Shown: positions 14,743 through 27,987 of the stretch, one piece after another
Position numbering within the stretch: the first letter of the stretch is position 1
Layout: each line of letters begins with the position of its first letter
DNA from: Rhodospirillaceae bacterium
GTDB lineage: Bacteria; Pseudomonadota; Alphaproteobacteria; SP197
Length of the DNA stretch: 64,000 nt
NCBI GenBank assembly: GCA_002722885.1
Contig: PBNE01000006.1
Location: forward strand, 333,894-397,893
Direction of reading: 5' to 3'
Notes under the pieces: generated by a model
The model's database searches: none
The model's input: only the letters and a program-made list of their open reading frames with translations
What the model was told of the DNA's origin: nothing
Made by a program: the position numbers and the translations under genes

Positions 14743-16227
14743 ATGACACACTTCCTGACGTCACGACATGACATCACGCTCAATCTGGTGCGCGACGTAG
14801 CCTGGCGTGGCGAAGCCCTGGCCGTCGCGGACGTGACCCTCGACGACATCGACAAACAGCGTGAGGCCTTCCTGGCCTTTGTTCGCTGTGACTCCGACGC
14901 GCGGGTCTACGGGGTCAATCAGGGGCAGGGTGAGATGATTGCCGAGGCCATGGATGAGGCCGACCGTGAACGGTTGGCCCGGCTCAAGCCATTGGCAGCC
15001 GCCGTGCCGTTCGGTGAACCTTATCCCGAGCGGGTGGTGCGGGCGATGGTGCTGGCCCGATTCGCGAACCTGTTGGAAGGGCATGGCACGGGTTCCGTGC
15101 GGCTGGTCCAGGCGCTGGCGGCCATGCTTAACGAGGGGCCGTTGCCGAAGGTGCCGCAGAAAGGCCAGGGCGGTCCTGGTGAGATTCTGGTGCTTTACAC
15201 GCTGTTCGCCGATCTTGCGCAATCGCTCGACCTGGAGCCCGGCGAGCGTGGCGCGCTGATCAATGGCGCGCCAGCGGCGGCAGCCGTTCTGGCTGATGCG
15301 GCGCTGGTCGGCGAACGTCGGCTGGCCCTGGCCGAACGTGTTCTGGCGCTGGCGATTGTCGCGTTCAACGCGCCGGCGGAACACTACGAGCCCGTTGTCG
15401 GCACTCTGCTGGGCGGCGCCCACAATGAGACGGCGTTCAACAACCTCGCCGCCCTCCTTGATGGCATGACGAACGGCGTCGCAGCCCGCGACCATCAGGC
15501 GCCGGTAGGCTATCGTATCGTGCCCCATGTGCTCGGGCAGGCACATGCCGCCGTGGAACAGGCGCATTTGATGGCGACCCAGAGCCTGTCTGCGGTGACT
15601 CACAACCCGATCTACCTGGCCCCGGAGGCCGCCGGTGGCTATGGCCGCAGCCTCAGCACCGGCGGCTATCACAACGCCGTCGCCGCGCCGGCGATGGACC
15701 AGATTGCCGGAGCCTGTGCTGATCTTTGTCTTGTCTGTCTGCGTCTATGCGTCGGTTTGCTGAACGGCCGCGTCTCGGGCTATCCCGATTTTCTTTTGAG
15801 CGGGCGCAAGGCGGGAGAATCGGATGGACATGGGGCGGTGGGCTATCTGCCGATGGCGATCACCGGGTTCATGGAAGAAGCGCGTGCGGCGGCAACGCGA
15901 ACGTTCATTCCGGCGTCGGATGCCAGTGTGTTTGGACAAGATGACGTGACCGCGCCGGCGTTCCTGGCCTGGCCCAAGACTATGGCCGCGGGCGCAAGCA
16001 TGGAGGCCTGCCTGGCCGTCACGGCGGTAGCGGCGTCGCAGGCCCTGCATGTGACAGGCCGGACACAGATCCCCGCGCCTTTGACGGGGTTGCTTGATGA
16101 TGTCAGGCATCATGTGCGGACGGTCGAGGGCGACCGCGTACTCGGTCCGGACCTGGGTGCACTCACAAACCATCTCCGGGCCGGTGTGTTTACCGACGAT
16201 CACAACAGCGACGGGAGCGGCCGATGA
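14743..16227 (+). CDS. HAL/PAL-fold aromatic amino acid lyase-like protein lacking the MIO-forming ASG motif
   Basis: VYGVNQGQGE (HAL YGINTGFG), PKVPQKGQGGPGEILVL (HAL PHIPLKGSVGASGDLAPL), ERGALINGAP (HAL EGLALLNGTQ), HQAPVGYRIVPHVLGQA (HAL QDPYSLRCQPQVMGA), AVTHNPI (HAL AVSDNPL), STGGYHN (HAL SGGNFHG). Confidence 0.8.
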   Translation: MTHFLTSRHDITLNLVRDVAWRGEALAVADVTLDDIDKQREAFLAFVRCDSDARVYGVNQGQGEMIAEAMDEADRERLARLKPLAAAVPFGEPYPERVVRAMVLARFANLLEGHGTGSVRLVQALAAMLNEGPLPKVPQKGQGGPGEILVLYTLFADLAQSLDLEPGERGALINGAPAAAAVLADAALVGERRLALAERVLALAIVAFNAPAEHYEPVVGTLLGGAHNETAFNNLAALLDGMTNGVAARDHQAPVGYRIVPHVLGQAHAAVEQAHLMATQSLSAVTHNPIYLAPEAAGGYGRSLSTGGYHNAVAAPAMDQIAGACADLCLVCLRLCVGLLNGRVSGYPDFLLSGRKAGESDGHGAVGYLPMAITGFMEEARAAATRTFIPASDASVFGQDDVTAPAFLAWPKTMAAGASMEACLAVTAVAASQALHVTGRTQIPAPLTGLLDDVRHHVRTVEGDRVLGPDLGALTNHLRAGVFTDDHNSDGSGR

Positions 16228-17576
16228 GCGAGGAAAGTAGGCAGTCGATGCGGTCCTATCTGGCCGCGGCTGAAGAAGCGGGCGACTTGCACCGGGTCAA
16301 GGAAACCGTCTTGCCGCTGCATGAGATAGGGGCCTGCCTGACCCTTCTGGACGGCAGATCTCCGGTGCTCTTCGAAGCCGTTAAGGGGCATGGCCTGCGC
16401 GTGACGGGCAACCATCTCACCACGCGCGAACGTATTGCCGCGGCCTTGGGAACAACCGCCGCCTCGCTGCAACAGCGTCTGGTCGACGCCATTGCGTCGC
16501 CTCTGGCACCTGCTCTTGTCGAGGCCGCACCCTGCCAGGACGTGATCGTCGAGAATCCGGATTTGGCGGATCTGCCGATCCCGACCTTCTTTGAGCATGA
16601 AACCGGTCCCTACATCACGGCTGGCGCCATTGTGGCGAAGGACACCAGGACCGGCCTTGGCAATCTCTCGATCGCCCGGCTGAAACCGTTGGGGGAGAAC
16701 CGGGCCTTCATCGGCATCGCGCCGAACCATCACCTCGCCGTTCTGGCGCGTGCGGCGAAAGAGCGTGGCGAGCGGCTGGAGATCGCGGTCACCCTTGGCA
16801 ACCACCCCGCCGTGATGCTTGCGGCGTGTCTTTATCTCGGACTGGGCGACGACGAGATGACCGTGGCGGGCGCGTTGCTGGAAGAGCCGCTGGAGACGAC
16901 GACGGGAACGACTGTCGACCTTGCCGCGCCGGCCCATTGCGAGATCGTTCTGGAGGGTGTGCTCGATCCTGATGAGATGATCGAGGAGGGACCGGTCAGC
17001 GAATTCCACGGCATGTATGAACGTTACGGTGCGGGTTATGTTGTGCGATTCTCGGCCATGACGCGGCGACGCGACGCGATCTTTCAGTGCGTGCTGCCTG
17101 GTTATGCCGCCGAGCACGTTCTTCTGGGTGCGGAGGCCATTGCGGCGGGACTGGCCCGACATCTCAGGGGTGCCGTCACGTCCCTCAAAGAGATTGCGGT
17201 GACGACCGGTGGCGCGGGACGTCTCCACGCTGTGGTGAGCCTCGATCACCCCCGGCCCGGCGCCGCCCGCAAGGCGATCTTCGCGATCTGGGGTGCGGTC
17301 AATCTTATCAAGCAGGTGACGGTGGTCGATGGCGATGTCGACCCTTGGGACCCGGTCGCCGTCGAACACGCCGTAGCCACACGGATGCGACCGGAACGCG
17401 ATCTGATCGTGGTGTCGGGTGTTCAGGCCGACCGGGCAGAACCGCTGGAAAGCGGCGGTACGGTCGGCAAGCTCGGTATCGATGCGACGATCCACGACAG
17501 TGACCGTGCCGACTGGACGCCAGCGCGACCGCCTGTTGAGGTTTTGGCGCGGATACGGGAGATGCTGGGGCGCTGA
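16224..17576 (+). CDS. UbiD family decarboxylase
   Basis: ENPDLADLPIPTFFEHETGPYITAGAIV, APNHHLAVL, IEEGPVSEFHGMYERY, KQVTVVDGDVDPWDPVAVEHAVATRMRPERDL; ATGA overlap with the upstream gene. Confidence 0.9.
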   Translation: MSEESRQSMRSYLAAAEEAGDLHRVKETVLPLHEIGACLTLLDGRSPVLFEAVKGHGLRVTGNHLTTRERIAAALGTTAASLQQRLVDAIASPLAPALVEAAPCQDVIVENPDLADLPIPTFFEHETGPYITAGAIVAKDTRTGLGNLSIARLKPLGENRAFIGIAPNHHLAVLARAAKERGERLEIAVTLGNHPAVMLAACLYLGLGDDEMTVAGALLEEPLETTTGTTVDLAAPAHCEIVLEGVLDPDEMIEEGPVSEFHGMYERYGAGYVVRFSAMTRRRDAIFQCVLPGYAAEHVLLGAEAIAAGLARHLRGAVTSLKEIAVTTGGAGRLHAVVSLDHPRPGAARKAIFAIWGAVNLIKQVTVVDGDVDPWDPVAVEHAVATRMRPERDLIVVSGVQADRAEPLESGGTVGKLGIDATIHDSDRADWTPARPPVEVLARIREMLGR

Positions 17577-23844: not shown

Positions 23845-23885
23845 GTTTCCGGGCCACGCGACGAACTTGCCGGAGAGATGTGGGC

Positions 23886-25904
23886 ATGAGTGCAGAGAAC
23901 GACAGCCCGGAGATCGTGACCGCGTTCCCCTGTGCTGTCCGGCATATCGAACACCTCTGGGTTCCCATGCCCGATGGCACGCGATTGTCCGCTCGGGTCT
24001 GGTTGCCGGAAGATGCCGAAGACAATCCGGTCCCTGCCATCCTGGAATACATTCCCTACCGCAAGCGGGACGGCACCCGTGGCCGCGATGATTCCATGCA
24101 CGGCTGGTGGGCCGGACACGGTTATGCCTGCATCCGGCTCGACATTCGCGGGACCGGAGAATCGGAAGGTCTCATCACCGACGAATACAGCCGGCAGGAA
24201 CTGCAGGACGGATTTGACGCCATTGCCTGGTTCGCCGAGCAGCCGTGGTGCTCCGGTGCTGTGGGCATGACAGGCATCTCCTGGGGTGGTTTCAACGGAC
24301 TGCAAGTCGCGGCCATGCGGCCGGCCGCTTTGAAGGCCATCATCACGCACTGTTCCACCGACGACCGCTATGCCGATGACGTGCATTTTATGGGTGGCGC
24401 CCTTGCCCTGGACAACTGGTTCTGGGGCGGCGCCTTCTTCCAGTTCATGGCGCGGCCCGGTGACCCGGAGATTCAGGGGGAGCGATGGCGCGAACAGTGG
24501 ATGAAGCGGTTGGAAGCCTGGGAGCCGGTCTCGTCCACCATCTGGCTGCAGCATCAACGCCGCGATGCATACTGGAAGCACGGCTCGGTGTGCGAAGATT
24601 ACGACGACATCGAATGCGCCGTCTTTGCCGTGGGAGGTTGGGAGGACGGCTACTCCAACGCCATCCCACGCATGCTCGGCAACCTGAAGGGGCCGCGAAA
24701 GGGTCTGGTCGGCCCATGGGGCCATAAGTTCCCGCATCTCGGGATTCCAGGCCCGGCGATCGGCTGGCTGCAGGAAGGGTTGCGCTGGTGGGACCACTGG
24801 CTGAAGGGTGTCGACAACGGGCTCATGGATGAGCCGATGTATCGGGTCTGGATGCGGGAGCCATCGGTTCCGGACTCGAGGCTGGCGACGGTCCAAGGTA
24901 AGTGGATCGATGAACCGGTCTGGCCTCAACCGGACCCCGGCGAACGACACTGGGTCTTGTGGCGTAGCGCGAATGGCGCGCGCACCGTCAAGCCGAGGCA
25001 GACGGTCGGTGTGACCGCCGGAAACTGGTGTCCCTACCAGCTCGGGGGTGCGAGCCCCGATCTCGCGATCGACCAGAGTGAGGATGACGGACGCTCCCTG
25101 GTGTTCGAGACCGAACCGCTGCAAGAGCGGATCGAGTTTCTGGGTCAGCCCGTTGTCAGGCTGAACCTGTCCGTTGATCAGCCACAGGGGTTTGTCGCTG
25201 TGCGGCTCGTCGACGTGGCGCCCGACGACACGGCAGCGCGCGTGACCTACCAGGTTCTCAATCTCACCCACCGTGACGATCACGAGGCGATCGCCGACAT
25301 GCCGGTCAACGAGCCTGTCGACCTGGCGATACGGCTGAACGACATGGCTTGGTCGTTCCCCGCGGGTCATCGCATTCGCGTGTCGCTCTCAACGGCATAC
25401 TGGCCGGTTATCTGGCCGTCGCGGGCGCCTGTGATCTTGACGGTGCACGACTGCGATCTGACGTTGCCTGAACGGACACCGCGCGACAGCGACGGCGGTG
25501 AGCCCTTTGATCGGATCGCAATAGCGACACCGACCCCGCATACTGAACTGACGCCGCCCAACTCGGAGCGCACGGTCACACGTGATCTCGCGACGGGTGA
25601 ATGGAAGACGATCCAGATCGAGGACAACGGCGTCTGGCGGTTCGATGCGATCGATCTGGAATGTGCCGAGAGCATTCATGTCGAGTACCGTATCCGCGAC
25701 GACGATCCGCTTTCGGCTTCAGCGTGTTGGACCTATCGCTCGGCCCGACGTCGTGATGGGTGGGACATCGCCATCGAAAGCTCACATGCCGTGCGAGCGA
25801 GCCGTGACGCGTTTGTCGTCGATGTTGAAATCTGCGCCAAGGATGAAGGCCGGGAGGTCTATCATCGTTCCTGGTCACATGAGGTGCCACGCGACGGTGT
25901 CTAG
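23886..25904 (+). CDS. CocE/NonD family hydrolase, paralog 2
   Basis: HIEHLWVPMPDGTRLSARVWLPEDAEDNPVPAILEYIPYRKRDGTRGRD; VGMTGISWGGFNGLQVAAMRP. Confidence 0.92.
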   Translation: MSAENDSPEIVTAFPCAVRHIEHLWVPMPDGTRLSARVWLPEDAEDNPVPAILEYIPYRKRDGTRGRDDSMHGWWAGHGYACIRLDIRGTGESEGLITDEYSRQELQDGFDAIAWFAEQPWCSGAVGMTGISWGGFNGLQVAAMRPAALKAIITHCSTDDRYADDVHFMGGALALDNWFWGGAFFQFMARPGDPEIQGERWREQWMKRLEAWEPVSSTIWLQHQRRDAYWKHGSVCEDYDDIECAVFAVGGWEDGYSNAIPRMLGNLKGPRKGLVGPWGHKFPHLGIPGPAIGWLQEGLRWWDHWLKGVDNGLMDEPMYRVWMREPSVPDSRLATVQGKWIDEPVWPQPDPGERHWVLWRSANGARTVKPRQTVGVTAGNWCPYQLGGASPDLAIDQSEDDGRSLVFETEPLQERIEFLGQPVVRLNLSVDQPQGFVAVRLVDVAPDDTAARVTYQVLNLTHRDDHEAIADMPVNEPVDLAIRLNDMAWSFPAGHRIRVSLSTAYWPVIWPSRAPVILTVHDCDLTLPERTPRDSDGGEPFDRIAIATPTPHTELTPPNSERTVTRDLATGEWKTIQIEDNGVWRFDAIDLECAESIHVEYRIRDDDPLSASACWTYRSARRRDGWDIAIESSHAVRASRDAFVVDVEICAKDEGREVYHRSWSHEVPRDGV

Positions 25905-25935
25905 AAGCAGGTGAACGGCTAGGGGGAGACAAAGC

Positions 25936-27987
25936 ATGATGATCGACCACAACAATGAGACCCGTGTGGTCACCGAGTTTCCGCACAAGGTGCGCGAGAT
26001 CGAGCATGTCTGGGTTCCGATGTCGGACGGCACGCGGCTTTCGGCGCGGATCTGGATGCCTGAGGATGCGGAGGACCGGCCAGTGCCCGCCATCCTTGAA
26101 TACATCCCCTACCGCAAGCGCGACGGGACACGGGCTTGGGATGATCCGCGCCATCGCTACTGGGCCGGTCACGGCTATGCCTGCATCCGACTCGACATCC
26201 GGGGTACCGGAGAATCGGAAGGGCTGATCACAGGCGAGTACGTGCTGCAGGAGCAGGACGACGCCGTTGATGCCATCGCCTGGTTCGCTGAACAGCCCTG
26301 GTGCGACGGCAATGTGGGCATGACCGGGATTTCCTGGGGTGGGTTCAACAGCCTGCAGGTGGCGGCGCGCCGCCCCCCGGCGCTGAAGGCGATCATCACC
26401 CATTGTTCGACCGACGACCGCTATACCGACGACATCCACATCATGGGTGCCGTGCCGCTGGTGGAGAACTTCTTCTGGGGTTCGGCCTTCTTCCACATCA
26501 TGGCACGGCCCGGCGATCCGGAGATCCAGGGTGAGGGCTGGCGCAAACAGTGGATGGAGCGGCTGGAGAACCAGGAGCCGGTGGTGGCGACCGAATGGCT
26601 GCAGCACACCCGGCGTGACGATTACTGGAAGCTCGGTTCGGTCAATGAGAACTACGACGACATCACCTGTGCGGTTTACGCGGTGGGTGGTTGGAACGAC
26701 GGTTACTCCAACGCCGTGCCGCGCATGCTGGCGAACCTCAACTGCCCCAAGAAGGGATTGGTCGGTCCGTGGGGTCACAAGTATCCGCAGGACGCGATAC
26801 CCGGTCCGTCGATCGGCTTTCTGCAACATGCCCTGCGCTGGTGGGATCATTGGCTGAAGAGGGCCGAGACCGGGATCATGGACGAGCCGCAGTACCGGGT
26901 CTGGGTCGACGAGCCGCAGACGCCGTCGTCGGTGCTGCCGATGTCAAAGGGGCGCTGGATCGCCGAACCGTCCTGGCCTTCGCCGAACATCGAAACGAGA
27001 CAGATGTTTCTGAACAGCGATGGCTTGGCGGACAAACGTCGTCATTCAACGAAGATCGAACACTGCAGCCCGCTGACGGTTGGTTCAGGTGCCGGGGTGT
27101 GGTGCCCCTACGGGCTGGGCGGGACCAGCCCGGACCTGCCCATTGATCAGCGTGAGGATGACGGCAAGTCCCTGAGCTTCGACAGCGCACCGCTCGATGA
27201 GCGCCTGGAGATTCTCGGTGCGCCGGTGGTGACGCTGAGGATCGCGGTCGACCAGCCCCAGGGTATGGTTGCCGTACGTCTTTGCGACGTTGCGCCCGAT
27301 GGCGAGTCGAACCGAGTGACCTATGGTCTGCTCAACCTCTCGTTCCGAAACAGTCTGGATAAGCCGCGGTCGATGAAGTCCGGGGCTGAGGTGGAGATTC
27401 GTGTGCAGCTCAACGACTGTGCCCATGCTTTCCCCGCCGGTCACCGCATCCGTGTGGCGGTCTCGACGAGTTACTTTCCCGTAGCGTGGACACCGCCGGA
27501 GCCAGTTACGATGACTCTTGTGACCGGGCGCAGCAGTCTGGACCTTCCGGTGCGTGTGCCACGTGACGAGGACGCCCGGCTCGCCGACTTCGGCCCGCCC
27601 GAAATGGCGGCGATGCCGGAGATGGACGAGATCATGCCGGGTGAAGGATCCCGCCACGTGGAGCGAGATCTGGCAAGCGGCGAGCAGATTGTGCGGATTG
27701 TCGAAGACGGCGGTGCCTTCCACATCAAGGATCTCAACCTCGATTGTGCAGATGGCGTGACGGCAGAGTTCCGTATCATGGAAGGCGATCCGACATCGGC
27801 CTGCGGTGTGTGGCGCTGGTCGAGCCGGCGGACGCGCGGGGACTGGGACGTCGCGGTCACCTCACAGATGGCCGTGACTCTGTCGCAGGATGGTTTTCAC
27901 ATCGCAACGGATCTCGAGGCGTTCGAAGGAGAGCAGCGTGTGTTTTCTCGCCGCTGGAACCATGATGTTCCGCGCGATCATATCTAG
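25936..27987 (+). CDS. CocE/NonD family hydrolase, paralog 3
   Basis: REIEHVWVPMSDGTRLSARIWMPEDAEDRPVPAILEYIPYRKRDGTRAWD; VGMTGISWGGFNSLQVAARRP; tandem with paralog 2. Confidence 0.92.
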   Translation: MMIDHNNETRVVTEFPHKVREIEHVWVPMSDGTRLSARIWMPEDAEDRPVPAILEYIPYRKRDGTRAWDDPRHRYWAGHGYACIRLDIRGTGESEGLITGEYVLQEQDDAVDAIAWFAEQPWCDGNVGMTGISWGGFNSLQVAARRPPALKAIITHCSTDDRYTDDIHIMGAVPLVENFFWGSAFFHIMARPGDPEIQGEGWRKQWMERLENQEPVVATEWLQHTRRDDYWKLGSVNENYDDITCAVYAVGGWNDGYSNAVPRMLANLNCPKKGLVGPWGHKYPQDAIPGPSIGFLQHALRWWDHWLKRAETGIMDEPQYRVWVDEPQTPSSVLPMSKGRWIAEPSWPSPNIETRQMFLNSDGLADKRRHSTKIEHCSPLTVGSGAGVWCPYGLGGTSPDLPIDQREDDGKSLSFDSAPLDERLEILGAPVVTLRIAVDQPQGMVAVRLCDVAPDGESNRVTYGLLNLSFRNSLDKPRSMKSGAEVEIRVQLNDCAHAFPAGHRIRVAVSTSYFPVAWTPPEPVTMTLVTGRSSLDLPVRVPRDEDARLADFGPPEMAAMPEMDEIMPGEGSRHVERDLASGEQIVRIVEDGGAFHIKDLNLDCADGVTAEFRIMEGDPTSACGVWRWSSRRTRGDWDVAVTSQMAVTLSQDGFHIATDLEAFEGEQRVFSRRWNHDVPRDHI

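Follow-up and report, generated by a model that had tools for sequence, protein, structure and literature searches.

What does a histidine ammonia-lyase (HAL)-shaped protein do once the serine of its MIO triad is gone, and why should its gene be joined to one encoding a UbiD-family decarboxylase? Both questions are raised by a locus of the window, the 64,000-nucleotide stretch of DNA from a Rhodospirillaceae bacterium that was analysed here. The features concerned are as follows, with equivalent residues in P. putida HAL numbering and counts among 44 aligned relatives.

14743..16227 (+): predicted MIO-less PAL/HAL-fold lyase, 494 aa; PF00221 match, in a clade of 44 that lacks the MIO serine, under purifying selection
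14908..14910 (+): codon of Tyr56, equivalent to HAL Tyr53 (catalytic Tyr); kept in 44/44
15172..15180 (+): codons of Gly144-Pro145-Gly146, site of the MIO Ala-Ser-Gly with the Ser deleted; from position check and alignment
15262..15264 (+): codon of Asn174, equivalent to HAL Asn195; kept in 43/44
15505..15507 (+): codon of Val255, at HAL Tyr280; V in 43/44, I in 1/44
15514..15516 (+): codon of Arg258, equivalent to HAL Arg283 (substrate carboxylate); kept in 44/44
15940..15942 (+): codon of Asp400, at HAL Glu414; N in 23 and D in 17 of 44
16224..17576 (+): predicted UbiD-family prFMN decarboxylase, 450 aa; PF01977 E = 1.7e-56, TIGR00148 281 bits (cut-off 245)

The MIO loop and active site of the window lyase

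The lyase ORF starts with ATG and contains no internal stop codons. The encoded protein matches Pfam PF00221 (Lyase_aromatic) at 172.9 bits (E = 1.3e-50, cut-off 27.3), a model also matched by 24 of 24 members of alignment A1, and scores only 155–160 bits against HutH models, for which the NCBIfam hutH cut-offs are 524–539. The gene is under purifying selection, with a dN/dS of about 0.2 (0.19 and 0.18 against two complete orthologues). These values, and a loop common to 44 proteins, agree with the earlier sequence-only reading of the locus, which had described an intact gene of 494 aa and no obvious pseudogene. An AlphaFold2 model of the window protein, made from a two-sequence input, had a mean pLDDT of 39.8 and was discarded.

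Searches of relatives' genomes, wider groups and plasmids yielded several dozen homologues, which in alignment A1 share 33–69% identity with the window protein; residues were counted in an alignment of 44 of these relatives with 19 other HAL/PAL-like proteins. The family forms one side of a single tree branch (support 100/100), and the window protein and a relative from Rhizobium jaguaris fall in one 8-row subclade (support 100/98). A single-sequence search of genome contigs returned only one distant canonical HAL, and a profile search of viral contigs found no family member.

Codons 15172–15180 (GGT CCT GGT) encode residues 144–146, Gly-Pro-Gly, as previously reported. The accompanying description of this site as an ASG triad replaced by GPG holds in part: the MIO serine is absent in 44 of 44 relatives, but it has been deleted and the triad has not been substituted. 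The window protein and every relative have a gap in the triad Ser column; the column before it holds A (33), P (8), S (2) or E (1), and the triad Gly is kept in all 44. The loop GSVG-ASG-D of HALs reads GQGG-P-GE in the window protein, in which Gly146 and Glu147 are invariant across the family and the Pro varies, so that the heptapeptide GQGGPGE, whose invariance had been in question, is conserved only in part. As aligned, the exact description of the loop is a deletion of the Ser of A-S-G to give [A/P]-G-E. The opposite case, ASG in the homologues and GPG in this genome alone, was also checked, and ASG occurs in none of the family homologues, which confirms, at the level of the alignment, a family-wide loss of the MIO serine and not a local decay. 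By alignment and tree, the window protein is one of a group of HAL-shaped proteins, so far without a name, that all lack this serine.

The remainder of the active site is a mixture of kept and lost residues. The residues equivalent to Tyr53, Asn195, Gln277 and Arg283 serve as catalytic Tyr and in carboxylate positioning (PMC11432326), and the Gln277 column is Q in all 44 relatives. The motifs YGVN (at residue 56), INGAP (173), VTHNP (285) and STGGYHN (305) lie at the claimed sites of the window protein, and the proposed loss of a second active-site Tyr with retention of the Arg in QAPVGYR (252–258) is borne out by the Tyr280 and Arg283 columns. Two further changes had been overlooked: His83 of HAL is lost in the family, and the Glu414 column is N or D in 40 of 44 relatives. 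Compared with HutH and the MIO ammonia-lyase superfamily, the window lyase shares the PF00221 fold, Tyr53, Asn195, Gln277 and Arg283, but lacks the MIO serine, Tyr280 and His83, has Glu414 replaced, and scores 155 against 539 bits.

The window genome also encodes a canonical ASG HAL, a family paralogue (G000:C2:183265-184713) and a third variant. A separate HAL-fold group (support 100/100), comprising L003 (G000:C1:33538-34968), L065/L024 and L029, has the loop GSVGA-SDL, in which Ala-Ser-Asp is present and the Gly is missing; Tyr280 is Ile and Asn195 is Ser or Ala in this group, a non-canonical MIO loop.

The UbiD partner and gene neighbourhoods of the family

The lyase stop codon overlaps the UbiD start codon by 4 bp (ATGA). 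The predicted UbiD protein has three UbiD domains with the catalytic Arg and Glu motifs kept, and its nearest solved structures are PtHmfF (6h6v, E = 4.8e-77) and AnInD (7p9q, E = 4.4e-46), which are furandicarboxylate and indole-3-carboxylate decarboxylases, respectively (PMC8988006). By these matches the window UbiD belongs to the HmfF/indole-carboxylate (heteroaromatic ring acid) group, from whose solved members it differs in being coupled to a HAL-fold gene. We know of no description of such a coupling for an HmfF/AnInD-type UbiD. Action of the UbiD on an acrylate product, as Fdc acts on cinnamates, was considered and is weakened, the closest structures being ring-carboxylate decarboxylases. 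Another UbiD, PA0254, forms a covalent adduct at imidazole C2 (PMC7976604), which makes imidazole a chemically plausible substrate type for UbiD. A partial literature search for UbiD with urocanate, or for UbiD with ammonia-lyase and trimethylamine, returned no relevant link.

The lyase-UbiD pair sits between opposite-strand glycolytic genes encoding a class I fructose-bisphosphate aldolase and phosphoglycerate kinase; further flanking ORFs we take, by eye, to be glyceraldehyde-3-phosphate dehydrogenase and transketolase. The pair is at the same place in three other genomes (G009, G005 and G002), although a frameshift interrupts the G002 lyase. The UbiD gene lies directly upstream of the lyase in G013 and G011, and on the divergent side in Rhizobium and G259. 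Recurrence of the same pair in three arrangements argues for a functional link between the two proteins. A UbiX gene is present elsewhere in the window genome. Between the lyase and the aldolase region, L038 (8202-9227), L039 and L043 carry a DUF6687 gene that is absent from the window. Elsewhere in the window, at 23880-27987 (+), two related ORFs (674 and 683 aa) stand side by side; they form one BLAST cluster and, judged by eye, resemble CocE-type X-Pro dipeptidyl peptidase hydrolases.

Genes in the neighbouring loci of relatives were called with a home-made codon-usage script, some of whose calls in GC-rich loci were wrong (e.g., L121, corrected). The nearest relatives outside the genus, from Rhizobium jaguaris and G259, lie in ergothioneine-utilisation-type loci. 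The R. jaguaris gene is flanked on one side by ErtD (760 bits, cut-off 600), ErtE (575 bits, cut-off 520), UbiX and UbiD, and on the other by a ProV-family ATPase, two permeases and an OpuAC betaine-binding protein; ErtE is an N-carbamyl-L-glutamate amidohydrolase and ErtD a hydantoin-5-propionate amidohydrolase, and the cut-offs are those of NCBIfam. The G259 relative has ErtE, UbiX and UbiD neighbours. R. tropici CIAT 899 retains UbiX, UbiD and the lyase, with remnants of ErtE (residues 353–429) and ErtD (residues 1–48) between the latter two (L096:8503-9001), and on these remnants the locus is a decayed ergothioneine-type operon. The R. jaguaris-type UbiD subfamily was found in 4 of 72,556 plasmid records (E <= 1e-100), each time beside Ert genes or their remnants. 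A UbiD-subfamily gene of Thalassospira marina (L147:15492-16910) accompanies genes for thiourocanate hydratase, a DUF917-type desulfurase, ErtD and ErtE, a set that looks complete.

More distant members show related contexts. In G100, two genes lie directly upstream of five tandem family members: one for an S-methyl-thiourocanate hydratase (891 bits, cut-off 880) and one best matched by the S-methyl-thiohydantoin desulfurase model (409 bits, below the cut-off of 450). In G377, a HutU urocanate hydratase gene (945 bits) overlaps a family member by 4 bp. Some family loci are instead near L-carnitine-dehydrogenase-like and BKACE genes (below cut-offs), likewise a betaine theme, and many have no pathway neighbours. 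The ergothioneine-utilisation-type context was seen for relatives L095, L124 and L059; the window lyase itself is adjoined by UbiD only. The 2.7 Mb G100 genome holds about 15 family copies, in tandem arrays of 2 to 6 (L055, L056, L059 and L060). Genes nearby encode an S-methyl-thiourocanate hydratase and a thiohydantoin desulfurase-like protein, besides a homocysteine S-methyltransferase and a cupin of the DMSP-lyase type. HAL-like proteins of 537 aa that keep ASG are encoded beside ErtD/ErtE at L144:12768-14381 (with UbiD/UbiX as well) and L138:7828-9441, indicating that MIO-type proteins also occur in Ert-type loci.

The window genome does not support ergothioneine degradation by the known hydratase/desulfurase route. 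No thiohydantoin desulfurase was found in it, and its sole hydratase candidate is HutU-like and below threshold, with no thiourocanate hydratase above threshold. Hercynine or a different betaine may therefore be the substrate here in place of ergothioneine. An ErtD-like gene is present below the cut-off, away from the lyase.

The candidate reaction and its alternatives

The gene neighbourhoods of the relatives suggest elimination of trimethylamine, and not of ammonia, from histidine betaines such as ergothioneine. We infer that the window lyase is a MIO-independent enzyme of this kind, ergothionase-like and on an apparently separate branch, and put the probability of this reading at about 0.6. 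Against it count the many family loci with uninformative neighbours, the L-carnitine-dehydrogenase-like and BKACE context of some others, the absent desulfurase and sub-threshold hydratase and ErtD-like genes of the window genome, and the distance of the family from the solved ergothionase. A HAL-fold lyase would here have given up its MIO electrophile because the leaving group needs no activation: MIO would serve to activate a poor leaving group, an amine, whereas trimethylammonium could leave unaided. The substrate carboxylate would be held by Arg258, Asn174 and Gln252 while Tyr56 takes the beta proton beside an imidazole-type ring, and a quaternary amine (trimethylamine) would depart to leave a urocanate-type acrylate, the reaction type of ergothionase. 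MIO, Tyr280 and Glu414, the putative free-amine-handling parts of ammonia-lyases, are the parts lost here; this pattern, in which the residues that bind the carboxylate are kept along with Tyr53, fits a trimethylammonium leaving group. The translationally coupled UbiD probably removes a ring carboxylate, perhaps of imidazole type, from a pathway precursor or product.

The sequence-only reading named no reaction, and had offered either a MIO-independent enzyme or a scaffold protein. The first is supported by the family-wide loss, the constraint on the gene, the kept carboxylate residues and catalytic Tyr, and the catabolic operons; the second is disfavoured, as set out below.

A MIO-independent lyase might instead expel another leaving group, such as ammonia from an activated substrate or a thiol or sulfonium, or might add or remove water as a hydratase. 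The diversity of the family and the G100 tandem copies, which have genes for a homocysteine S-methyltransferase and a cupin (DMSP-lyase type) in their vicinity, are in line with this, and for the same reasons substrates may differ between branches. For the window protein such chemistry is nonetheless rather unlikely, since the betaine transporter, ErtD/ErtE and urocanase-type neighbours indicate histidine betaines in its own subclade, and since PAL Ser-to-Ala mutants lose essentially all activity, electron-poor substrates included (PMC3903478; PMC12535398). The missing classical active-site elements, together with the translational coupling, might also point to a catalytically dead scaffold or ligand-binding protein in support of the UbiD enzyme. 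This we regard as improbable: the residues equivalent to Tyr53, Asn195, Gln277 and Arg283 are near-invariant across very diverged sequences, most family members have no UbiD neighbour, and copies are found after urocanase-type genes, a position in which one would expect a lyase step. That the gene is a decayed or misassembled HAL copy, as the frameshift-split G002 orthologue might imply, or that the electrophile comes from another triad or a bound cofactor, is very improbable, as the decay part is already contradicted by the dN/dS values, the loop is identical in type across 44 proteins, and the same genome has a separate canonical ASG HAL.

Ergothionase and the wider family

Trimethylamine elimination by a MIO-free protein of this fold would have a precedent in ergothionase, described in PMC13405746 (citing Maurer 2019) as a MIO-free trimethylamine-lyase of PAL/HAL fold, so loss of MIO alone is not unprecedented. 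The ergothionases of Treponema denticola (6s7j/6s7q) and Burkholderia sp. HME13 share with the window lyase, at the level of its sequence, a PAL/HAL-type fold and the lack of MIO, and ErtD/ErtE, a urocanase-type hydratase and a betaine transporter recur beside the present family. The family is, however, no more similar to 6s7j than to HALs, and 6s7j scores below many HALs. An Ert-type locus of A. tumefaciens, in which the downstream pathway is the same and proXWV is present, encodes a MIO-free HAL (loop GSVGY---LTHAA, Tyr280 to Leu). This protein clusters outside the family, among the ASG enzymes, and the two MIO losses therefore look separate in a tree that lacks the ergothionases of Treponema and Burkholderia. 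L142, a candidate ergothionase on the strength of its gene context alone, also falls outside the family in this tree. UbiD coupling is, to our knowledge, no part of the ergothionase pathway.

A broader scenario, which we hold more tentatively and at somewhat less than even odds, is that a second lineage of the PAL fold dispensed with MIO on its own and diversified into onium lyases (for trimethylamine and possibly sulfonium), reaching about 15 copies in one genome; one branch would act on imidazole compounds together with a prFMN-dependent UbiD, in a route of betaine catabolism not described before. An earlier description of a HAL-fold family without the MIO serine is possible, literature coverage here being partial.

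By homology, public models label the family as aromatic amino acid lyase or histidine ammonia-lyase; these labels are very probably wrong. Should the proposed function hold, MIO would be dispensable for any quaternary-amine leaving group, and a sequence signature, the gapped Ser with an aliphatic residue at Tyr280, would predict that dispensability. UbiD/prFMN chemistry would then be tied to histidine-betaine breakdown, and the family would provide a testable set of new trimethylamine-producing lyases, with a bearing on environmental sources of trimethylamine.
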